Notes under the pieces: model-generated | What the model saw: only the letters and a program-made list of their open reading frames with translations | The model's database searches: none | What the model was told of the DNA's origin: nothing | Shown: positions 39,071-50,347 of the stretch, one piece after another | Layout: each line of letters begins with the position of its first letter | Numbering within the stretch: the stretch's first letter is position 1 | From: Terrimesophilobacter mesophilus | Lineage (GTDB): Bacteria; Actinomycetota; Actinomycetes; Actinomycetales; Microbacteriaceae | Direction: 5' to 3' | DNA: 64,000 nucleotides | NCBI RefSeq assembly: GCF_014200375.1 | Contig: NZ_JACHBP010000001.1 | Span: 806,001-870,000, forward strand | Translations under genes and position numbers: made by a program

Positions 39071-39868
39071 CTACCGGGGCGAAGCGGCCTTTCGCTCCCG
39101 GAGTCCGGCGAGCAGCGCGAGCAGTTCCGCCACTGCTTGAGGGTCGGCGACGCGATGCGAGGCCGCGGTCTCCCCCGGTCCGACCTTGACGCCGACGTCG
39201 TGTCCGGACAGCACGGCGAAGCCGTCCTCGTCCGTCACGTCGTCGCCCACGAACAGGACGGCGGAGGCGGCGGTGCGGTGCCTGATCACGTCGAGAGCAG
39301 TCCCCTTGTCCGCTTCGCGCACCGTGAACTCGAGGATGTCCTTGCCGTAGCGCTCCGTGATCCCGCTCGACGGTCCGAGTGCGGCGACCGCGGCGAGCGC
39401 GTCGGCCCTGGCCGCGTCCGCGTCTGCCGGCGACGACATCCGCGTGTGAAGTCCTGACCCGGCCGGTTTCCTCTCGGTCCTGGCACCCGGATATCGGGCT
39501 GCGACGGTTTCGACCGCCGCGTACAGCCGATCGAGCATCTTCCGCTCGTCGCCGTCCAGTTCAGGGCCGGAGACGGCGCCGCCGAATCGGAATTCCGCCC
39601 CGTGCGACCCGACGAGGATGGTCGAGTCCGGAAGCCTGGCCACCGACGCCAGGTTGCCGATCGATCGCCCGGACACGAGGGCGATCCGCGTCTTCTCCAA
39701 GTCCTCGAGCGCGAGGATCGCGGCCATGGCATCCGGATGAGAGCGAGCACTCGCAGGGTCGTCGACGGTCGGGGCGAGGGTGCCGTCGAAGTCGAGCGCG
39801 ACGAGAAGCTCGTCGACGTCCGCGATCCGCTCGATCGCGGCGACGAGCGCCGGGGGCAGCGCACTCAT
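39071..39868 (-). CDS. otsB: Trehalose-6-phosphate phosphatase
   Basis: A 265-residue HAD-superfamily phosphatase releasing trehalose from trehalose-6-phosphate. The nucleophile motif is LDFDGTLAP (Asp26, Asp28), SGR follows in motif II, KGTALDVI supplies the Lys, and GDDVTDEDGF provides the metal-binding acidic residues. The start at 39868 overlaps the otsA stop by 4 bp, so the two pathway genes are coupled. Confidence 0.94.
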   Translation of the reverse strand: MSALPPALVAAIERIADVDELLVALDFDGTLAPTVDDPASARSHPDAMAAILALEDLEKTRIALVSGRSIGNLASVARLPDSTILVGSHGAEFRFGGAVSGPELDGDERKMLDRLYAAVETVAARYPGARTERKPAGSGLHTRMSSPADADAARADALAAVAALGPSSGITERYGKDILEFTVREADKGTALDVIRHRTAASAVLFVGDDVTDEDGFAVLSGHDVGVKVGPGETAASHRVADPQAVAELLALLAGLRERKAASPR

Positions 39869-41355
39869 CGAGACCTCGTGTCCTTCTCGTGCCGGTGGTG
39901 CGCGAGCACCTCGAGGAAGCCGTTCGACCACTTCTCGACATCGTTGTCGAAGACCCGCTTGCGCAGGTACCGCATCCGGGACCGCCGCTCGTCGTGCGGC
40001 ATCTCGACGGCGCGCATGAACGCATCCTTGAGCCCGTCGATGTCGTGGGGGTTCACCCGGATGGCGCGGGTGAGCTCATCGGATGCGCCGGCGAACTCCG
40101 AGAGCACGAGGACCCCGTCATCGTCGAAGCGCGATGCGACGTACTCCTTCGCCACGAGGTTCATCCCGTCGCGAAGCGCCGTGACGAGCATGATGTCCGC
40201 CGCGAGATACAGCGCGACCATCTCCTCGCGGGGATAACTGTGATGGTGATAGCTGATCGCCTGGTGGCCGAGCTCGGAGTATTCGCCGTTGATCCTTCCG
40301 ACGGTGAGCTCGATCTCGTCGCGCAGGTCGATGTAGCTCTTGACGCGTTCACGACTCGGGCTCGCGACCTGAACGAGGATGACCTCGGTCGGGTTGATCC
40401 GGCCCTCTGCGAGCAGTTCGCCGTAGGCCTGCAGCCGGTGCCGGATGCCCTTCGTGTAGTCGAGCCGGTCGACGCCCAGCATGATCATGGCCGGGTTCCC
40501 GAGGTCTGCGCGGATCTGCCGCGCGCGTGCTCGGATGCCGGGATCCTTCGCGGCAGCGCGGTAGATATCGGCGTCGATCGAGATCGGGAACTTCTTCGCG
40601 ATCACCGTGCGGGAGGGCGCGCCGCGTTTGATGGGCGAGAACACCCTCACGCCGGGCGACTCGTCGACGATGGGCACTTCGATCCGCGACCCCGTCGTCG
40701 CGTAGCCCTTGAGCCTGCGCACCGCCTGGGCGAAGTTGCCCGCGTCGGCATCGCGTTGAAAGCCCACGACATCCGCCCCCAGCAACCCCTCGATGACGTG
40801 CGTGCGCCACGGCAACTGGGAGAACAGGCCGTACGGGGGGAACGGGATGTGGTCGAAGAATCCGATCGTCAGGTCCGGCCGGAGTTCGCGGAGCATTTTC
40901 GGCACGAGCTGGAGCTGGTAGTCCTGCACCCAGACGACGGCGCCCTTCGCCGAAACCGCTGCGACGATGTCGGCGAATCGCTGGTTCACGGCGCGGTAGG
41001 CATCCCACCATTCGCGGTGGAACGACGGGGCGGCGATGACGTCGTGATAGAGGGGCCAGAGCGTGTCGTTGGAGAACCCCTCGTAGTATTCCCTGACCTC
41101 CGCAGCGGACAACCTCACCGGGACCAGATGCAGGCCGTCGATGTCGAACGGGTCGAGTTCGAGGTCGGCTTCGCCTGCCCAGCCGACCCACGCACCGTCG
41201 TGGCTGTGCATGACCGGCTCGAGGGCCGCGACGAGCCCACCGGGGGATCTCGACCAGCCCTGGCCACCGTCGGCATTCACCACGCTGTCGACCGGGAGCC
41301 GATTGGACGCGACGATGAAATCGAAGAGTCTCGCTGAGGGGGCAGTCGTGCTCAT
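39865..41355 (-). CDS. otsA: Trehalose-6-phosphate synthase (GT20)
   Basis: A 496-residue retaining glycosyltransferase of family GT20 that joins UDP-glucose and glucose-6-phosphate. Visible motifs include IVASNRLPV at the N-terminus, WVQDYQLQLVPKMLRELRPD, FHDIPFPP-type sequence (FFDHIPFPPYGLF), VDRLDYTKGIRHRL, and EYVASRFDDDGVLVLSEFAG near the C-terminus. I chose the ATG at 41355 with AGGG upstream over a longer frame to 41394. It forms an operon with otsB. Trehalose serves as osmoprotectant and carbon store. Confidence 0.95.
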   Translation of the reverse strand: MSTTAPSARLFDFIVASNRLPVDSVVNADGGQGWSRSPGGLVAALEPVMHSHDGAWVGWAGEADLELDPFDIDGLHLVPVRLSAAEVREYYEGFSNDTLWPLYHDVIAAPSFHREWWDAYRAVNQRFADIVAAVSAKGAVVWVQDYQLQLVPKMLRELRPDLTIGFFDHIPFPPYGLFSQLPWRTHVIEGLLGADVVGFQRDADAGNFAQAVRRLKGYATTGSRIEVPIVDESPGVRVFSPIKRGAPSRTVIAKKFPISIDADIYRAAAKDPGIRARARQIRADLGNPAMIMLGVDRLDYTKGIRHRLQAYGELLAEGRINPTEVILVQVASPSRERVKSYIDLRDEIELTVGRINGEYSELGHQAISYHHHSYPREEMVALYLAADIMLVTALRDGMNLVAKEYVASRFDDDGVLVLSEFAGASDELTRAIRVNPHDIDGLKDAFMRAVEMPHDERRSRMRYLRKRVFDNDVEKWSNGFLEVLAHHRHEKDTRSR

Positions 41356-41477
41356 TGCCCTGCCGATCCCTCCTTCGACGCCGACGGATGTCACCGGCCG
41401 CCCGTCAGGCCAACGCTACCAGCCGTTCCTGAGCCCGGTGCAGCAGCGTTCAGGATGTCTGCTTAGACTGAAAGTCC

Positions 41478-42371
41478 ATGATTCGCATCGGAATGAGCAC
41501 GTCGGCGGTGTACCCGCTACCGCCGGAGCACGCATTCCGGCTCGCGCGGTTGGCCGGTTTCGACGGCATCGAGGTCATGGTGACGAACGATGAGGTCACC
41601 CAGGAAGCCGGTGCGCTCCTCGAGCTCTCAGAGCGTTACGAGCTCCCCATCCTGTCCATCCACGCTCCCGTGCTCCTGCTCACCCACTTCGTCTGGGGCC
41701 GCGACCCGCGAGTGAAACTGGAACGGTCCGCCGAGCTCGCACGGGCGGTCGGTGCGACGACCGTCGTGGTCCACCCGCCGTTCCGCTGGCAGGCGCAGTA
41801 CGCGCGAGACTTTCTGCGCATCGTGCGGGCGACATCCGCGGCATCCGGCGTCGAGATCGCCGTCGAGAACATGTTCCCGTGGAAGGTCGCGGGGAGAAAC
41901 CTCAAGGCGTATTCCCCCGGCTCGGACCCGACCGCCATGGACTGCGACCACATGACGCTCGACTTCTCGCACGCTTCGCTGTCCGGACGCGATTCTCTCG
42001 AACTCGCCATGTCGATGGGCACCCGGCTCCGGCACGTGCACCTGTGCGACGGTTCCGGTTCGATGGACGAGGGCAGGATCTTCGACGAGCACCTGCTGCC
42101 CGGCCGAGGCAGCGAACCGGTCGGTGAGGTCCTGGACTATCTCCTCGCCCGGGGCTGGGACGGATCCGTGGTCGCGGAGGTCAACACGCGTAAGGCGAAG
42201 ACGGAACAGGAGCGGCTGGACCTGCTGACCGAGACGCTGAATTTCGCGCAGAACCGGCTTCACGTCGCCCCGCGCAGGCAGTTCGGCTGGCATCCCCGCC
42301 CGGCCGATGCGCTCGGCATCTTCCGCAGGGCAGGGCGACGCGCACTCACGGCGCTGCGCTCGTCGAACTGA
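41478..42371 (+). CDS. Sugar phosphate isomerase/epimerase (AP endonuclease 2-like TIM barrel)
   Basis: A 297-residue TIM-barrel protein of the xylose isomerase-like superfamily. Metal-site candidates are the Glu/His pairs typical of the fold: ILSIHAP, VVVHPPFRWQ, IAVENMFPWK, LDFSHASLSG, HVHLCDGSGS and VAEVNT. The reaction is unknown; the superfamily contains isomerases, epimerases and endonuclease IV. TAGACT lies eight bases before the ATG with no ribosome site, suggesting a leaderless transcript. It is divergent from otsA. Confidence 0.85.
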   Translation: MIRIGMSTSAVYPLPPEHAFRLARLAGFDGIEVMVTNDEVTQEAGALLELSERYELPILSIHAPVLLLTHFVWGRDPRVKLERSAELARAVGATTVVVHPPFRWQAQYARDFLRIVRATSAASGVEIAVENMFPWKVAGRNLKAYSPGSDPTAMDCDHMTLDFSHASLSGRDSLELAMSMGTRLRHVHLCDGSGSMDEGRIFDEHLLPGRGSEPVGEVLDYLLARGWDGSVVAEVNTRKAKTEQERLDLLTETLNFAQNRLHVAPRRQFGWHPRPADALGIFRRAGRRALTALRSSN

Positions 42372-42400: not shown

Positions 42401-44260
42401 TCAGGCGGTGCGCACCGGCACCAGACCGAGCGATCGCGCCGTCCTCACCCTCCGGATCGCGAGCAGGGACAGCAGGATGCTTCCCACGGCGAACAGGGCG
42501 AGCACGAACGCGGCGCCGACGATCGGACCGGCGGATGCCCGGGCGATGATCCCTTGCATTCCGCTCACCCCGTAGGTGAGCGGGAGCAGCGGGCTCACCC
42601 ACTGGAACGGGGTCGCGAGGAGTTGCACGGGATACAGCCCGCCCGTCGCCGTGACCTGGACAGCCAGCACGAAGAGCGACACGACGAGACCGGCCCTGCC
42701 GAGACCGACGGTCAACAGGTAGTGGAACGCCGTGAACGCGAACGCCATGAGCAGTGAGAATCCGAGCGTCGCCGGAAGCGCCGCCCACGTCACGCCGACC
42801 ACGAGATGGAGCAGTGCGACGAGCAGGACGGCCTGCGCCGCACTGATCGCCGACGCCTTCGCGAGCGAATGCGCCACGAGTCGGCCGTTGCCCGCGGTCG
42901 AACCCAGCGAACGCGGGTTCACGGGACGCATCACCAGGAAGATGGCGAGCGCGCCGATCCAGAGGCCGAGTGGCACGAAGAAGGTGGCGATCCCCTGGCC
43001 GATGCCGGCGACCTCGTTGTCCCGCGTCACCGTGACCGACACCGGGTCGGCGACGACCTCGGCGTTCGCGGCCGAGGAGCCCGTGTCACCGATCGGCAGT
43101 CGGGCAGCCCCCGCCGAAAGCCCGTCGGACAGGCTCGTCGCTCCCGTGGCCAGTTCGCCTGCACCGCTCGATGCGGATGCCGCACCGGTCGACAGGCTCG
43201 ACAGGCCGCTCGCGAGCGAGGATGCCCCGTCTCTCAGCCCCGATGATCCGGCGGACAGCCTGGCGGCGCCAGAGGCACTGGACGCGATGCCGCTCTGGAT
43301 GCCCGTCACGGCTCCCTGCGTCTGTGCGGCCAGCGTCGATCCGCCTGCTGCTGCGGCAGTCAGCTGTGCGCTCAGGGTGTTGACGGTGGCCAGCGCGACG
43401 GGGTCGCCCGGGTTCGCCTGCAGGGTCGCGTTCGCGGTCGCGAGCGCGTGTGCGAGGGCCGTCACCGAATCCGTGAACCCTTCGACTCCGTCGCTCACAC
43501 CCGTGAGCCCTGCGGCACCCGAGCGCAGTTGCAAAAGCCCCTTGCTCAACGAATCGACGCCACCCGTGTAACTGCGGACCCCGCCGGCCAGTCCTGTGGC
43601 CCCTCCGCTCGCCGTCGCGACGCCGTCGGCGAGGGTCGACAGCCCCGCCTCGAGGTCGCTCGCTCCGCTCGACAGGGACCCGGCGCCATCCGCCGCCGAA
43701 CTGAGCGATGTGCCCAGTTCGCCCATGCTCGAATAGATGCCGGCGATGTACTGCGCGGTGATGGCCTTGCCGAAGGTGGAGGCCATGCCCTCCCCCACGG
43801 ACTGCGCCACCGCGCCGGAGAGATAGCTGTGGGCGTCGTCGGTCGTGATGGCGAGGTCTGCACGCTGGGGTTTCGAGGACGAGAGCGACAGGATCGAGGG
43901 GGAGAAGTCCTTCGGGATCGTGAGGATCGCGTAGACCTTCCCCGCGGCGAGTGCCTTCTTCGCGTCTTCGTCGTTCGTGACGGTCCAGTTCACACCCGTC
44001 GTGTCGCCCGTGAGCTCCGTCACGAGTTGCCGCCCGGCGAACACCGGTGTCCTCGTTCCCGAATCGGTCGTGTAGACGAGCGTGTCATTGTTCACGATCG
44101 CGGCCGGGATGCGATCGAGCGAGGTGTCGGCCTTCGAGAGTGCGCCGATGAAGAGGCCGGCGAACGCGAGCGGGACGAGGATGATCGCGCCGATAGTCGC
44201 GCGACGGATCCAGCGTGCCCGTTCGCCAGAGCGCGGTGTCATAGTGGTCGATGTGCTCAC
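42401..44260 (-). CDS. YhgE/Pip-family membrane protein
   Basis: A 619-residue protein of the YhgE/Pip family, related to ABC-2 type permeases and to ESX/type VII secretion-like envelope proteins. It has one N-terminal helix (ATIGAIILVPLAFAGLFIG), a long extracellular region with heptad-like repeats of Ser/Gly/Ala/Leu (pattern LSSGAxxLxxGxxxLxxG) around residues 190-400, and a C-terminal block of five to six membrane helices. The function is not known with certainty; phage infection, lipid export or secretion have been linked to relatives. The GTG at 44260 overlaps the MMPL stop by 4 bp, so the two are made together. Confidence 0.87.
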   Translation of the reverse strand: MSTSTTMTPRSGERARWIRRATIGAIILVPLAFAGLFIGALSKADTSLDRIPAAIVNNDTLVYTTDSGTRTPVFAGRQLVTELTGDTTGVNWTVTNDEDAKKALAAGKVYAILTIPKDFSPSILSLSSSKPQRADLAITTDDAHSYLSGAVAQSVGEGMASTFGKAITAQYIAGIYSSMGELGTSLSSAADGAGSLSSGASDLEAGLSTLADGVATASGGATGLAGGVRSYTGGVDSLSKGLLQLRSGAAGLTGVSDGVEGFTDSVTALAHALATANATLQANPGDPVALATVNTLSAQLTAAAAGGSTLAAQTQGAVTGIQSGIASSASGAARLSAGSSGLRDGASSLASGLSSLSTGAASASSGAGELATGATSLSDGLSAGAARLPIGDTGSSAANAEVVADPVSVTVTRDNEVAGIGQGIATFFVPLGLWIGALAIFLVMRPVNPRSLGSTAGNGRLVAHSLAKASAISAAQAVLLVALLHLVVGVTWAALPATLGFSLLMAFAFTAFHYLLTVGLGRAGLVVSLFVLAVQVTATGGLYPVQLLATPFQWVSPLLPLTYGVSGMQGIIARASAGPIVGAAFVLALFAVGSILLSLLAIRRVRTARSLGLVPVRTA

Positions 44261-47200
44261 GGTGTCGTACCTTCCCGGTGGCCCGCCGGACCCGCGAGGG
44301 GCTCGGCTGCGAGGTGGATCGCATGGTGATCTGAGCGGTCGTCTGACTGGTCGCCGGCGTGGTCGCCCGAGTCGTCGCCCGAGTCGTCGTTTCGGGCGCG
44401 CAGGTCGAGGTCGACTACTGCGCGCCCGATCGACGTCGCACGCGGTCGGTCGCCCGCCACGGATGCGCTGAGCACGATCGCCGTGGTCGCCGGCGCGAGC
44501 GTGCCGACGGCGGCCAGCACGTCGTCGCGCTCGTCGACGGTGAGTTCGTATCCCGAGAACTCGAGCACGATCATGGTCGGACGTTCGGCCAGGGCCACAG
44601 CGGAGAGTGCAATCGCACGGTCGAGTACGGGCAACGCCCCGAGACGTGACCGTACGGTGAGCGGTCGATCGAGCACCTGGCCCAGCCTGCCGATCCACTG
44701 GGCGGCGATCCTGCCACTCGGCCAGGCGCGGTACCAGGGAAGCGTGACGCGCAGTCGTTCCTCGAACAGCTCACCGAGAGCGGGGTCGGCGTCCCCGCGA
44801 TCGAGGATGCCGATATCCATCATCGCGACCCGTCTTGCGACGCGCGCGACCTCGGACGGCAGCGGATGCCCTCCCACCTGGACACGCCCGGACAGGACGG
44901 GCACCCGGCCGGCGAGCGTCGCCGCGATGAGGCGTCGGTCGAGTGCAGACCCTGTGACGGTCAGGATCGCCCCGGTGGGCACCCGCAGGTCGAACGGTCC
45001 GACGACTTCGGGTGTCGGCGATGTTCCGCTCACCGCGACCACGAGTCGCTCCGCGGTGATGGCGTCGCCACGCTGGTTCTCGGTCCACGCCACCTCGTCG
45101 AGGTGACCGCGAAGGTGCTCACCCTCGATGTCCATGTTGGGAAGGAGGCGGGACAGCCATCCGGGCATCCACCAGGCCGCGCGTCCGAGGAGGGCCATGA
45201 TGGCGGGGCCGAGCGTCATCCGCACGAGGAATGCGTCGAAGGCGATCCCGGTCGCGAGGCCCAGCGCGATCGGTTTGATCATGCCGGAGCCTTCGGGGAC
45301 GAAGGCGAAGAAGACGAAGAACATGATGAGCGCTGCCGCCGTGACGACGCGCGAACCGTTGGCGAACCCGCGCGAGATCGCCGTTCTCGAGCTGCCGGTC
45401 TTCACGAACTCTTCGCGCATCCCCGACACGAGGAACACCTCGTAGTCCATGGCGAGCCCGAACAGCACCGCCATGAGGATGATGGGCATGAAGCTCAGGA
45501 TGGGTCCCGTCGATGTCAGCTGCAGCAGGTCGCCGAGCCATCCCCACTGGAAGACCGCGACGGTCACGCCGAACGCTGCGACGACGGACAGCAGGAACCC
45601 GAGCGCGGCCTTGATGGGGATCAGGACGGAGCGGAACACCATCATGAGCAACACGATCGAGAGTCCGACGACGATGAGCCCGAAGGGCACGAGCGCGGCG
45701 GAGAGCCGGTTCGAGATGTCGATGCCGACGGCTGTCGTGCCGGTCACGAAGATCTTCGTGTCGTACTCCGCGTCGATCGTCGGTGCGAGGTCCCGGATGG
45801 ACTGCACGAGCCTCTTGGTCGCCTCCGCGTCGGGCGCGCTGGAGGGAACGACCTGGATGATCGCGGTGTCGAGGCCGGCATCCGGAAGCCCCTGGCTCAC
45901 CCACTCCACGCCGTCGAGTTGTCGGAGGTCATGACCGATCCGCTCGAGGTCGTTCATGATGTCGGTCGTCTGGGTGATGTCGACGGCGACGACGAGCGGG
46001 CCGTTGTAGCCGGCACCGAACCCCTCGGTCACGTGGTCGTACGCGAGCCGCTGGGTGGACCCCGCCGGCTCTGCACCGCCATCCGGAAGGCTCAGTTGCA
46101 GGCTGAGCGCCGGCACGGCGAGCGCACCGAGCAGACCGACGACGGCCACCGAGGCGACGATCGGATGCCGCATGACGCCGGTCACCCAGCGCAGCCCCAT
46201 GCTGCGCCCGGCTGGATCGTGCCCTGAGACGTTCGCCGAGGCGTGCGCCGCAGCGTGCTCCGCAGCGTGCGCGAGCGCGCGCTTCTCGGCCCGCGACCCC
46301 GCCCTGGGGCGCAGCCGCACACCGGCGAGCCCGAGCATGGCGGGGAGGAGCGTCGTCGCGACGCCGATCGCGATGAGTACGGCGAACGCGGCACCGATGC
46401 CCATGACGCTCAGGAACGGTATCCCCACGACGAGTAGCCCGAGCAGTGCGATGATGACGGTCACTCCGGCGAAGACGACAGCACTTCCCGCTGTCCCGAC
46501 GGCTGTCGCCGCGGACTCTTGCGGGTCGTCGCCCGTTGCGAGCTGATTGCGGTGCCTCGAGAGGATGAAGAGCGTGTAGTCGATCCCCACCGCGAGGCCG
46601 ATCATGAGTGCGAGCAGCGGGGCCGAGCTGGAGATGGTCGTGAATGCGGACGCCGTCGTGATCCCGCCGATGACTATTCCCACGCCGAGGAGCGCAGTCA
46701 GAAGGGGCATCCCGGCGGCGAGGAGGGAACCGAAGGTGACGAGCAGGACGATGGCCGCGAACACGAGGCCGAACACCTCGGTGATCGTGATGCCGAAGGT
46801 GGTGTCCTGGAACACCTGACCGCCGAATTCGACTGTCAGTCCGGCGTCTTCGGCGATCGACGCGGTCTTCTTGAGTGCGGTGAGCGTCGCATCCGTCACC
46901 GACGAGGACACCTCGTCGAACTGGATGCGCGTGATCGCCATCGTGCCGTCGTCGCTGAGCTGCTTCCCGGCGTATTCGTCGAACGGCGTCGTGACCGAGT
47001 TGATGCCGGGGATGTCCTCCATCGCAGTGGCCATCTGCGAGATCGACGCGGTGAACGCCGGACTGCTGACACTCGCACCGTCCGGTGCGACGTAGACCGC
47101 CTCCGCGCTCGCCCCCGCGACCTGCGGGAACACGGCCTCGAGACGGTCGAGCGCGTTCTGGGATTCGGTGCCGGGGATGGCGAACGCTTCCTGTGATTGG

Positions 47201-47316
47201 CCGCCGAGCGCGATGCCACCGCCGAGGATCGCGACGAGGAGGACGAGCCAGACGCCGATGACGCGCCACGGGCGCCGGAATGAGTACCGGCCGAGCCGAT
47301 AGAGCAGGGTTGCCAC
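44257..47316 (-). CDS. MMPL (RND-type) transporter with degenerate ABC-ATPase-like tail
   Basis: A 1019-residue membrane protein. Residues 1-726 are a normal MMPL/RND transporter: twelve helices in two halves, each with an external domain, and the charged stretch GLAVGIDYTLFILSRHR and GLAMDYEVFLVSGMREEF that are hallmarks of the family. Such proteins export lipids or drugs by proton drive. Residues about 754-975 look like an ABC ATPase that has lost its catalytic residues: TVTGSALDRRLIAATLAG in place of Walker A, and PTMIVLEFSG in place of Walker B. An Asp/His-rich tail follows. The GTG at 47316 has AGGAG upstream and lies 4 bp after the TetR stop. Confidence 0.9.
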   Translation of the reverse strand: MATLLYRLGRYSFRRPWRVIGVWLVLLVAILGGGIALGGQSQEAFAIPGTESQNALDRLEAVFPQVAGASAEAVYVAPDGASVSSPAFTASISQMATAMEDIPGINSVTTPFDEYAGKQLSDDGTMAITRIQFDEVSSSVTDATLTALKKTASIAEDAGLTVEFGGQVFQDTTFGITITEVFGLVFAAIVLLVTFGSLLAAGMPLLTALLGVGIVIGGITTASAFTTISSSAPLLALMIGLAVGIDYTLFILSRHRNQLATGDDPQESAATAVGTAGSAVVFAGVTVIIALLGLLVVGIPFLSVMGIGAAFAVLIAIGVATTLLPAMLGLAGVRLRPRAGSRAEKRALAHAAEHAAAHASANVSGHDPAGRSMGLRWVTGVMRHPIVASVAVVGLLGALAVPALSLQLSLPDGGAEPAGSTQRLAYDHVTEGFGAGYNGPLVVAVDITQTTDIMNDLERIGHDLRQLDGVEWVSQGLPDAGLDTAIIQVVPSSAPDAEATKRLVQSIRDLAPTIDAEYDTKIFVTGTTAVGIDISNRLSAALVPFGLIVVGLSIVLLMMVFRSVLIPIKAALGFLLSVVAAFGVTVAVFQWGWLGDLLQLTSTGPILSFMPIILMAVLFGLAMDYEVFLVSGMREEFVKTGSSRTAISRGFANGSRVVTAAALIMFFVFFAFVPEGSGMIKPIALGLATGIAFDAFLVRMTLGPAIMALLGRAAWWMPGWLSRLLPNMDIEGEHLRGHLDEVAWTENQRGDAITAERLVVAVSGTSPTPEVVGPFDLRVPTGAILTVTGSALDRRLIAATLAGRVPVLSGRVQVGGHPLPSEVARVARRVAMMDIGILDRGDADPALGELFEERLRVTLPWYRAWPSGRIAAQWIGRLGQVLDRPLTVRSRLGALPVLDRAIALSAVALAERPTMIVLEFSGYELTVDERDDVLAAVGTLAPATTAIVLSASVAGDRPRATSIGRAVVDLDLRARNDDSGDDSGDHAGDQSDDRSDHHAIHLAAEPLAGPAGHREGTTP
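44350..44385 (-). repeat. 12-bp tandem repeat in the MMPL gene
   Basis: Two perfect copies of GTCGCCCGAGTC (44362-44373 and 44374-44385) preceded by a diverged third copy at 44350-44361. They encode the Asp/Ser/Gly repeats of the C-terminal tail. Confidence 0.75.
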
Positions 47317-47320
47317 GCGG

Positions 47321-47890
47321 TTACTCCTGGTGGGTCGAGACCGGCACGGGCGCCAGCAGTTCGGTGATGATGGTGATGAGTGACGAGCGGATCTCCTCGT
47401 CGGGCGCGTCGACCGCACCGACAGTCTGCTGGGTGACGAGCATGTACGCCGCGCCGCCGAGTGCGACTCCGAACCGCATCCGGTGCTCGGTGCTCATCGC
47501 TGTCGACGCGAAGAAATCGGCGAGGTGCTGGACGAGTTCGTTGGCCCTGTCGACGACGGGGACGTCGATCAGGGATGGGCCCTGGTTGATGAACAGGTGC
47601 ACCTCGAGACGGTGTTGCAGCAGGAAGTCGACGAAGTCGGCGATGAACTCGCGACGGCTCGCCTTCGTGACCGGTCGACTCGCCATTGATTCGAGGATCT
47701 GCTGCATACGCTCGATCGCGGGTGTGACGACCGCTTCCAGGAGGGCGTCCTTCGACGCGAAGTGGTACAGGACGCTCGATTTGGAGAGGCCGGCGAGGTC
47801 GGCGATGCGGTGTATCGACGTGCCGGCGTATCCGGATGTCGCGAACTCCGTGAGCGCGATGGCACGCAGGTCTTCGGCACTCGTGGACAT
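47321..47890 (-). CDS. TetR-family transcriptional regulator
   Basis: A 189-residue repressor. The N-terminal helix-turn-helix (ALTEFATSGYAGTSIHRIADLAGLSKSSVLYHFASKDALLEAV, residues about 10-52) is typical, and the C-terminal ligand domain is variable. It is the first gene of the TetR-MMPL-YhgE operon. I chose the ATG at 47890 because a TATTGT -10 box ends exactly 7 nt before it and there is no ribosome site; the GTG at 47899 would overlap the box. Two palindromic operators directly upstream imply autorepression and control of the transporter genes by an unknown ligand. Confidence 0.93.
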   Translation of the reverse strand: MSTSAEDLRAIALTEFATSGYAGTSIHRIADLAGLSKSSVLYHFASKDALLEAVVTPAIERMQQILESMASRPVTKASRREFIADFVDFLLQHRLEVHLFINQGPSLIDVPVVDRANELVQHLADFFASTAMSTEHRMRFGVALGGAAYMLVTQQTVGAVDAPDEEIRSSLITIITELLAPVPVSTHQE

Positions 47891-47904
47891 GGATTTCACA
47901 ATAG

Positions 47905-48027: not shown

Positions 48028-49488
48028 TCAACCCGTCGCGGCTCTCCGCAGGTGCTCCAGGAGCGGATTCTTGGAGCACAGCTTCACGGGCACCCTGGCG
48101 GCGTCGACCGTGGGCGGTGGAATGAGCCAGAACTCGGCGTCTCGCCGCTCGATCTCCCAGTGATTGTTGTGCAACTGGAGGTGATGGAATCGGCACAGCA
48201 GCACGCCGTCGTCGACATCCGTTCGACCTCGGTCGCGCTTCCACTGTCTCGTATGGTGCGCCTCGGTGAACGCGGGAGGCCGATCGCAATCGGGCCAGAG
48301 ACATCCGCCGTCTCGAGCGGCGAGCGCTTCGCGCTGGCGGCGGTCGTAGAGCCGGCTGGTTCGCCCGAGATCGAGCGGCCTTCCGTTCCGATCGATGGTC
48401 AGTTCGAGCGTGTCCCCGTCGCACACACTGAGCTGGACCGTCGCCGCCGATACGACCTCCCCATTGTCCTCGAGCACGCCGAAGCCGCGTCCTTTCTGGG
48501 CTCCCGCATCGGCCTCGGCCCCGTTTCGCGGAACCTCCACGACGGTGTCGACCGTCGTCACGATCTTGACGAGCGTTCGCCGTTTCGGCTGCATCTTCTG
48601 CGGATCGACCGACGCACCGAGCGTCACGAGTTCAAGCAGGCCGTCGAGCGTGAGCCGCTCCGTCGTGCGCGGGTCATCGATGATGGCCTGCGCCCTGGCG
48701 GCATCGTCGGGCCGCGTGAATCGCGGACCACCACGCCGGGGGCTCGTATAGGGGTCGAGAGCAGTTGTCAGGATGGCCGCCGACTCCGGGTCGAGCTGCC
48801 CGGTCAGGCGCCACATCCCGTCCGGTTGCGACGACAGTCTCACTCCGCCGCGTTCGTAGAGTTCCTGCTGCCTGGCCTGGATGCCGTCGAGGTCGATGAG
48901 GTCCCGCTCCAGGCGCGCAGCCTTCAATATCCGGTCGGCGCTGAGATTCGACTTCTCCCGGATGAGCCGCTCGGCCACGTCGCTGAGCATGCCGCCGGTG
49001 ACGGTGACGGTCGGTTGCCCGAGCCCGCGACGAAGTGCGTCTGCGCAGTCGACGGTGAGGGTACCGGTGGTGATCGCCTGGCAGATGGGTTCGTCCCACG
49101 CCGGTTCCACCGGAACCCCGCCGAGTTCCGTCACACCGGTGTCGATGAGTTCGCGTGCGGCTTCGGCCTCCCCCATGGCATTACCCAGCGCGACGAGTTG
49201 CCCCGCCTCCCGGGCCGTCACCTTGGTGACCTCCTGAAGCAGCTTCTGGGGAGAGGCGAACCCGTTTCGTGCAGCCAATCCGGTGTGCCCGAACTCCCGT
49301 CGGGACCTGCGGGCGATCTGGGCGGCGTGCTGCGTCTTGACGAGCCCGAAGGCGCGCTCGAGAGCCGCGATGGCCACCCCCAGTTCGATGACCCGCTCAT
49401 CCGTGAGGGCGTCGTAGTCCGCGGAACTCGCACCGAACGTCGCGACCGCTGCTGCGGATTCGACGAGCGATTGTTCGAATGTGGACAT
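48028..49488 (-). CDS. DUF222/HNH endonuclease domain protein (13E12-type)
   Basis: A 486-residue protein with an N-terminal DUF222 domain and a C-terminal HNH domain. The HNH part holds CLWPDCDRPPAFTEAHHTRQW (Cys pair and His residues), followed by VDDGVLLCRFHHLQLHNN. Such genes occur in many copies in actinobacterial genomes; their biological role is not established, though mobile or restriction functions have been suggested. The ATG at 49488 has GGAGAG upstream. A longer frame to 49698 reads through an AT-rich promoter region and is rejected. Confidence 0.88.
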   Translation of the reverse strand: MSTFEQSLVESAAAVATFGASSADYDALTDERVIELGVAIAALERAFGLVKTQHAAQIARRSRREFGHTGLAARNGFASPQKLLQEVTKVTAREAGQLVALGNAMGEAEAARELIDTGVTELGGVPVEPAWDEPICQAITTGTLTVDCADALRRGLGQPTVTVTGGMLSDVAERLIREKSNLSADRILKAARLERDLIDLDGIQARQQELYERGGVRLSSQPDGMWRLTGQLDPESAAILTTALDPYTSPRRGGPRFTRPDDAARAQAIIDDPRTTERLTLDGLLELVTLGASVDPQKMQPKRRTLVKIVTTVDTVVEVPRNGAEADAGAQKGRGFGVLEDNGEVVSAATVQLSVCDGDTLELTIDRNGRPLDLGRTSRLYDRRQREALAARDGGCLWPDCDRPPAFTEAHHTRQWKRDRGRTDVDDGVLLCRFHHLQLHNNHWEIERRDAEFWLIPPPTVDAARVPVKLCSKNPLLEHLRRAATG

Positions 49489-49591
49489 GCAATGATTCTC
49501 TCCGACTCGGAGATATGTATTCCAGTGATTTTCAACATTGGTGGAGAAGTTATTTTCCACAGGCCTGTCAGGGAGGGGAGTTTCGCCGAGC

Positions 49592-49637
49592 CGGACTCGG
49601 CCCAAACCGAGCGGGCAGAGCGGCCGCGCCGAGTCCG
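49592..49637. terminator. Inverted repeat between phosphoribosyltransferase and HNH genes
   Basis: CGGACTCGGC (49592-49601) and its perfect complement (49628-49637) flank a 26-nt loop. It begins about 30 bp after the phosphoribosyltransferase stop (49667, minus strand), so a terminator is the simplest reading. A separate 10-bp palindrome ACAGGCCTGT lies nearby, upstream of the HNH gene. Confidence 0.5.
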
Positions 49638-49666
49638 ACCGAGCGCACCGAGCCCCCGAACCCCCG

Positions 49667-50347
49667 TCACGCTCGCAGCAACCGCCGCACCTCGGCATCC
49701 GTGGTCTGCGTGAAGTCGAGATAGGCCTGCCCGACCGCCCAGAACGGTTCCGGCACCCTCACGCAGACGACCCGGTCGACGAGCGCCTCGAGTTCCGCCA
49801 CGGTGTCGGCCGGCGCCACGGGAACCGCGACCGTCACGGATGCCGGCCCACTCGTCGCGAGCGCCATGATCGCCGCGCGCATGGTTGCCCCCGTCGCGAT
49901 ACCGTCGTCCACCAGGATGACATCGCTCCCGCGGACAGTCAGCGGCGCAAGCCCGGCACGATACGACTCCTGCCGCCGCTCGAGCTCCGCCCGCTCGACG
50001 GCGGCGACCTCATCGAACCGGCGCAGAGCATCCGGCCCCACCGAACGCAGCACCGAATCGTTGCGCACCTCGACGACCGATCCGGCAATCGAGGCGAGTG
50101 CGCCCATCGCGAGCTCGGACTGGCCGGGCACACCGACCTTTCGTACCACGATGACGTCGAGCGGCGCGCCGAGTGCACTGGCCACGACCGCAGCGACCGG
50201 AACCCCGCCGCGTGGAAGGGCGAGCACGATCGCTCTCGTCCCGTCGGCATCCGTGAGGCGGGCAGCGAGCGCCCGGCCGGCATCCTGGCGATCGACGAAC
50301 CGGTCAGTTGACCGATCGCCATACCGGTCGACATACCGCCTGGGCAT
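49667..50347 (-). CDS. Phosphoribosyltransferase-domain protein
   Basis: A 226-residue protein of the type I phosphoribosyltransferase fold. The PRPP loop is VILVDDGIATGAT at residues 143-155, with ALPRGGVPVAAVVA and VRKVGVPGQSELAMGA earlier, a pattern shared by stand-alone PRTase-like proteins of unknown substrate in actinobacteria. The N-terminal 20 residues are rich in Arg, Asp and Tyr. TAGGCT at 50354-50359 lies six bases before the ATG with no ribosome site, so the message is probably leaderless. Confidence 0.85.
   Translation of the reverse strand: MPRRYVDRYGDRSTDRFVDRQDAGRALAARLTDADGTRAIVLALPRGGVPVAAVVASALGAPLDVIVVRKVGVPGQSELAMGALASIAGSVVEVRNDSVLRSVGPDALRRFDEVAAVERAELERRQESYRAGLAPLTVRGSDVILVDDGIATGATMRAAIMALATSGPASVTVAVPVAPADTVAELEALVDRVVCVRVPEPFWAVGQAYLDFTQTTDAEVRRLLRA

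Follow-up and report, generated by a model that had tools for sequence, protein, structure and literature searches.

The window, a stretch of 64,000 nucleotides from Terrimesophilobacter mesophilus (contig NZ_JACHBP010000001.1, positions 806,001 to 870,000), encodes an MMPL-type resistance-nodulation-division (RND) transporter whose C-terminal tail is predicted, from structural modelling, to be a complete nucleotide-binding-domain (NBD) fold of the ATP-binding cassette (ABC) type without a canonical ATP site. The next gene encodes a YhgE/Pip protein. Relatives in which the ATP-binding loop is intact suggest a hybrid exporter that may have traded ATP for proton power, and the tail probably serves, without hydrolysing ATP, as a docking domain by which YhgE is kept at the proton-driven MMPL pump. 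The component families are already known; the MMPL–ABC fusion, the rule that pairs YhgE with an ABC or ABC-like partner, and the multiple losses of the ATP site were not found in literature searches of PubMed Central (open-licence papers, titles and starts of abstracts).

The three genes concerned are closely spaced, in the order TetR, tailed MMPL, YhgE/Pip:
47321-47899, minus strand: TetR-type regulator by family match, the first gene of an apparent three-gene operon
44257-47316, minus strand: MMPL-type RND transporter of 1019 residues with a C-terminal ABC-like tail (PF03176 match)
42401-44260, minus strand: YhgE/Pip protein of 619 residues (Pfam and NCBIfam matches, model)

The MMPL gene starts at a GTG preceded by AGGAG, and its end overlaps the YhgE gene by 4 bp (GTGA, 44257-44260), the coupling that a sequence-only reading of the window had already pointed out. 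The best 80 of 140 relatives (loci L008-L087) were taken as window-type, the named close relatives being mostly Microbacteriaceae. A TetR match lies upstream in 80/80 of these loci (cut by the contig end in L031), and YhgE lies downstream in 79/80, the remaining locus, L016, stopping at its contig edge. Because this layout recurs in 80 loci, a peculiarity of a single genome is ruled out; the MMPL of L037 is broken into two frames.

The tail and its motifs are placed as follows:
45085-45132, minus strand: DIEGE...W helix joining the MMPL core to the tail (alignment of 79 tails)
about 44380-45072, minus strand: predicted degenerate ABC nucleotide-binding-domain fold (model, fold search, profile comparison)
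44932-44952, minus strand: P-loop remnant GSALDRR, whose first Arg occupies the Walker A Lys position (ungapped count from TLAGR)
44725-44784, minus strand: segment after the Q-loop position, GELFEERL...PWYR, common to stand-alone YhgE-linked ABC proteins (alignment)
44605-44646, minus strand: position of the signature motif, with no LSGGQ (alignment)
44554-44574, minus strand: Walker B strand MIVLEFS, with Glu at the place of Asp in this copy (alignment)

The AlphaFold2 model of the tail, built from 79 tails, reaches a predicted local distance difference test score (pLDDT) of 85.7 and a predicted template-modelling score (pTM) of 0.82, with a pLDDT below 50 in the last 25 residues. The ABC fold occupies model residues 21-251, and the fold match extends over a whole domain. 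Foldseek matches the model to 1083 PDB chains at E<=0.001 (best E 7.5e-12, CbiO), and a second structural aligner superimposes it on FtsE with a Z-score of 18.0 over 210 residues (root-mean-square deviation, rmsd, 3.3). A structural match to ABC ATPases was thus found by the prediction that the sequence-only reading had proposed as a check, and its claim that the tail resembles an ABC ATPase is borne out; the motifs that it quoted (TGAILTVTGSALDRRLIAATLAG, SGRVQVGG and ALAERPTMIVLEFSG) are all present in the window tail. The segment that it assigned, 44257-45060, does lie inside the tail, but its start corresponds to residue 753 of the full-length protein, and the tail begins at the DIEGE helix (45132). 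At the level of profiles, the tail profile hits 35 PDB sequences at E<=0.01, every one annotated as an ABC or ATP-binding/permease protein, and aligns with the profile of stand-alone YhgE-linked ABC proteins over 201 columns (hhalign E 8.6e-32). A single tail alone gives nothing significant in Pfam, NCBIfam or PDB sequences: the window tail has no ABC_tran match at E<=10 and does not reach the Pfam gathering score, and its best PDB sequence match, the ABC protein 1ji0, has an E of 0.65, below significance. Chance resemblance is ruled out by the whole-domain fold match together with the profile match to the stand-alone ABC proteins.

Compared with the NBDs of ABC transporters (PF00005), the window tail is predicted to keep the whole fold, but it lacks the Walker A Lys, the catalytic Glu and the signature motif, and is covalently attached to an RND pump. 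In the tail alignment (80 rows, namely the window and 79 loci, L037 excluded), the P-loop position reads GxxxDRR, with G in 77/80, the first Arg in 80/80, the second Arg in 78/80 and Lys in 0/80. By our reading, an ungapped count from TLAGR, a motif present in both the tails and their stand-alone relatives, aligns the first Arg with the Walker A Lys or Arg of those relatives. Across all 82 window-group tails (the 80 loci, L167 and the window), GK[ST] occurs in none, so that the Walker A Lys is absent as the sequence-only reading had claimed. Its second claim, that the Walker B Asp-Glu is missing as well, holds for the window copy, which reads EF, with the refinement that Asp stands at the Walker B place in 73/80 aligned tails, Glu in 5/80 (window included), Asn in one and a gap in one. 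The catalytic Glu is not at its place in the aligned tails, and no signature motif of the LSGGQ type occurs in the aligned window-group tails. Meanwhile, other positions are strictly kept. The joining helix has D1, E3, G4, L7, H10 and W16 invariant in 79 tails; the invariant residues of the tail include three Arg. The conserved segment after the Q-loop position (GELLAERL..PWYR), common to the stand-alone ABC proteins, has one invariant Arg. In type V exporters, the region after the Q-loop position faces the membrane domain.

Among the MMPL loci sampled, the tail and a neighbouring YhgE go together. YhgE adjoins 112/112 tailed MMPLs that have room for a neighbouring gene on their contig, compared with 0/19 tail-less MMPLs (Fisher p 2.8e-23, an indication only, because the samples are non-random and related sequences are not independent). 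The 112 comprise 79/80 loci of L008-L087, 20/20 of a second set (L106, L108-L126) and 13/13 of a third (L176-L188); L142, L167 and the window also carry YhgE and are kept out of the count. The tail-less set holds 20 loci, one of which (L212) lies at a contig end. Similarity of the tail or of the whole protein served to collect the tailed MMPLs, and similarity of the core served for the tail-less set, with YhgE as no criterion; the tailed loci of the second and third sets and the tail-less loci were our picks among the matches listed. The survey that the sequence-only reading had called for, asking whether YhgE always accompanies tailed MMPLs, therefore answers yes wherever there is room in the loci sampled, and YhgE as a general neighbour of MMPLs is ruled out by the 0/19. 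Of the two results that this reading had named as refuting it, a tail without structural match and tails without YhgE, neither occurred among these loci.

The YhgE protein passes both NCBIfam cut-offs of its family, one for each half (TIGR03061, 129.1 bits against 96.15; TIGR03062, 168.7 against 102.2), and has the LxxG heptad repeats of YhgE/Pip proteins. It also matches PF12698 (ABC2_membrane_3) at 76.4 bits (cut-off 31.6). Through its transmembrane part, the model (pLDDT 85.2, pTM 0.60) superimposes on ABCG2 (Z 18.4 over 215 residues, rmsd 3.3), ABCG5/G8 and ABCA proteins; a long helical part occupies about residues 176-387. YhgE thus models as an ABCG/ABCA-type (type V ABC-2) permease fold, in agreement with the earlier suggestion that it resembles an ABC-2 permease. 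MmpL5, the second Foldseek match of YhgE, was given no weight, as its alignment follows the long helices. Unlike in type V exporters, whose membrane part is likewise of the ABCG2 and ABCA type, the NBD here appears dead and is fused to an MMPL rather than serving the permease alone. According to PMC4999554, the N-terminal domain of YhgE/Pip proteins has no known function.

With 279.6 bits, the MMPL core exceeds the Pfam gathering cut-off of PF03176 (20.5). Like the MMPL family (MmpL3-like proteins), it has two MMPL stretches and both Asp-Tyr pairs:
46567-46593, minus strand: Asp-Tyr proton-relay motif AVGIDYTLF in transmembrane helix 4 (sequence motif; role as in MmpL3)
45433-45459, minus strand: Asp-Tyr proton-relay motif GLAMDYEVF in transmembrane helix 10 (sequence motif)

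Both pairs are retained in 134/134 MMPLs, tailed and tail-less alike (a count made without the split L037 and without L075, whose core match is cut short), and a recount with a stricter pattern left the number unchanged. In MmpL3, the Asp-Tyr pairs are the proton carriers, as described in PMC10466384. The sequence-only reading, which had joined the tail to a proton-driven MMPL pump, is supported in that the proton-relay residues are intact, and the kept pairs suggest that the window MMPL would export by proton power. The core end is of the DIEGE/DVEGE type in tailed and tail-less proteins alike. Of the sampled tail-less relatives, 19/20 stop 20-63 residues past the core, whereas in the window protein a linker and an ABC fold of about 230 residues follow. 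One MMPL without the ABC tail, in L205 (442-3126), carries a different C-terminal extension of about 155 residues (GTVRSSDGTALPGAIVTLTD...), which looks by eye like a carboxypeptidase-regulatory-like beta domain; no YhgE lies nearby.

A tail-profile search of 347 genomes of the order returned both tailed MMPLs and stand-alone proteins. In all 27 stand-alone loci fetched (20 from this search and 7 from a search of the class), the stand-alone ABC relative adjoins YhgE, and 5/5 of the stand-alone proteins tested pass the Pfam ABC_tran cut-off. The best PDB matches of their profile are ABCA-type NBDs (E 3.2e-28). At Walker A, 40 stand-alone domains divide into 11 with Lys and 28 with Arg, many of the latter reading GxxGxGR[TS], and one (L195) that falls outside the pattern. 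The class-wide search matched 384/394 genomes, a count that gives no frequency of the fusion because its listed matches include stand-alone ABC proteins (E near 1e-13).

In the actinomycete loci examined, YhgE/Pip usually comes with an ABC protein or one that is ABC-like. Among 39 loci picked from the best-scoring YhgE matches, the upstream gene is, by pattern, a stand-alone ABC protein in 11 and a degenerate ABC-like one in 18; five more are degenerate ABC-like by eye (L140, L145, L148, L153 and L166), and one (L163) has an ABC-like upstream gene by a weak profile match of 15.9 bits. No ABC-like partner was found in L129, L159 and L160 of this survey, and L144 is cut. In many of the loci L134-L166, the gene upstream of YhgE (for example, L134:5034-5837) encodes a strongly degenerate stand-alone ABC-like protein, with motifs like RPTVLGLIASGRM and SPDRHGG and an hhalign E of 1.7e-9 to the stand-alone profile. 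By sequence comparison, these proteins represent a second kind of putative pseudo-NBD partner of YhgE. Both arrangements meet in L142 (2-7682), where a tailed MMPL and YhgE are directly followed by genes for a TetR regulator, a degenerate ABC-like protein and another YhgE.

The sequence-only reading had supposed that the ABC domain was borrowed as an inert scaffold. The domain is instead kin to the ABC proteins encoded beside YhgE, and the intact fusions contradict an inert scaffold, since the domain was fused while its P-loop was intact: in eight genomes (L176-L181, L183 and L184), the MMPL is joined to an ABC domain that still has GxxGxGKT and a Walker B Asp-Asp, with YhgE next. In all six of these tested (without L180 and L184), a single open frame scores above the MMPL cut-off as well as the ABC_tran one. 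In L182, the GKT loop is present in a core-only tail that scores 17.9 bits against the ABC_tran cut-off of 25. A further 23 fused tails, 178-239 residues long, have no Walker A Lys, and in a 20-row alignment of these short tails all except L106 lack, by eye, most of the helical subdomain.

In a quick tree of 67 MMPL cores, with support from the Shimodaira–Hasegawa-like approximate likelihood-ratio test (SH-aLRT) only, 47/47 tailed proteins fall in one clade (SH-aLRT 100), which argues for a single fusion event behind all tailed MMPLs. Mapping the Lys-bearing state on this tree takes three changes, at least two of which are forced by well-supported branches. The ATP site thus appears to have been lost at least twice within the tailed clade, because regain of the whole motif is taken as unlikely; the topology could perhaps be read as three to five losses. 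In the ABC tree, one group (91/93) takes in 31/32 fused domains, and six generic ABC ATPases lie away from it in a separate clade (100/99), which rules out the tail as an ABC domain of no particular kind. Furthermore, at a core identity of about 0.7, mean tail identity is 0.66 where the Lys is kept (11 pairs), against 0.41 in the window group (32 pairs) and 0.45 in the short tails (4 pairs only); the pairs belong to a sample of 60 from the window group, 60 from the short tails and all 28 from the Lys group. These values indicate that, after loss of the ATP site, the tail changes more quickly than the MMPL core, with the invariant residues staying in place.

The proton relay is intact, the permease lacks a working motor, and the motor domain persists although it is dead. 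Taken together, these features are read most simply as a tail that docks YhgE while the MMPL supplies the energy, and we consider this docking account the probable one overall. The tail would have originated as the NBD of an ABC-2 type exporter, with YhgE, the product of the next gene, as the membrane half. In an ancestor of the clade, fusion would have placed this ATPase behind a proton-driven MMPL pump; in the window lineage, the ATP site was later lost, with the fold and, we infer, the docking to YhgE kept. At present, the tail would dock YhgE to the MMPL, through which the proton gradient would power export, and the long helical part of YhgE may form a conduit or gate across the envelope. 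The TetR regulator presumably controls the three genes, and the cargo may be a lipid or another hydrophobic compound. The docking role, the energy source of YhgE, the TetR control and the cargo type are all deduced in this way from what the analysis shows, namely the fold, the relatedness, the single clade of fused proteins, the motif loss, the steady neighbourhood in the sampled loci and the kept proton-relay residues.

The fuller proposal, that an ABC-2 exporter (YhgE with its ATPase) was joined to an RND pump via its own NBD, that repeated events removed the ATP site, and that the permease is now proton-driven, is offered tentatively and is open to doubt. If the switch to proton power is true, the system is a hybrid of two transporter superfamilies, and the GxxGxGKT fusions are its dual-energy intermediate. 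In the arsenite pump ArsA-ArsB, the carrier can run on the membrane potential or coupled to an ATPase; its proteins are unrelated to MMPL and YhgE, and it is not known to have a permanent fusion to the motor of a second permease.

Several results weigh against the docking account and the history proposed for it. The physical contact or complex between MMPL and YhgE is itself deduced, and Foldseek alone gives no match at E<=0.001 for the YhgE model. The fused domains and the nearest stand-alone forms join in the ABC tree at only 87/94, a short tail on a long branch (L108) falls outside the fused group, and the generic ABC ATPases attach among other stand-alone proteins (98/89), which gives no support for treating the stand-alone set as one closed family separate from other ABC proteins. 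The YhgE tree of 84 rows, which speaks for the account in that the partners of fused proteins and those of stand-alone or degenerate proteins are split at one branch (100/99), is unrooted. In addition, the faster evolution of the tail and the tails elsewhere without most of the helical subdomain would fit a decaying leftover too, and the Arg that invariably replaces the Walker A Lys, with Arg in 28/40 stand-alone relatives, could mean continued nucleotide binding.

This last point underlies the rival that survives best, though it is unlikely: that the tail still binds nucleotide, with Arg for the Walker A Lys, and acts as a nucleotide-dependent switch or slow ATPase gating YhgE. The near-constant Arg pair, the many GxxGxGR[TS] loops among the stand-alone relatives and the Walker B Asp of most tails speak for it; however, the loop is, by our reading, one residue short, with the second and third Gly missing, the catalytic Glu and signature motif are absent, the window copy has Glu for the Walker B Asp, and the short tails elsewhere have shed most of the helical subdomain.

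Somewhat less probable again is a vestige under weak selection, in which MMPL and YhgE are independent exporters in one TetR operon and the fusion is mere history. Accelerated change after loss of the ATP site and the shortening of the tail in several lineages agree with a vestige, but modelling on 79 diverged tails predicts the full fold with high confidence, invariant residues persist, three Arg among them, and no tailed MMPL without YhgE, nor any tail-less one with it, is seen where the neighbourhood is visible.

Pairing of the tail with an intact NBD from another locus, in the manner of heterodimeric ABC transporters that have one degenerate site, is very improbable: such pairs are established for several ABC exporters, but the genome itself holds no second full-length relative of the tail, its other six matches span only profile positions 144-234 (E 2.9e-5 or weaker), and a single YhgE scores above the cut-off. 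A generic ABC ATPase is a conceivable NBD partner.

YhgE/Pip proteins gain a partner and a testable role, that of a putative type V ABC permease whose adjoining gene encodes an ABC or pseudo-ABC partner. The intact stand-alone ATPase, the intact fused ATPase, the dead fused domain and the core-only domain form a natural series, which allows one to test whether an ABC permease can move from ATP to proton power.

On its upstream side, the apparent operon is adjoined by a gene for a DUF222 protein (48028-49698; 61.1 bits) with, by eye, an HNH-like C-terminal end. Downstream, positions 39865-42371 encode a member of glycosyltransferase family 20, by family of the type of trehalose-6-phosphate synthases, and a TIM-barrel protein that resembles xylose isomerase.

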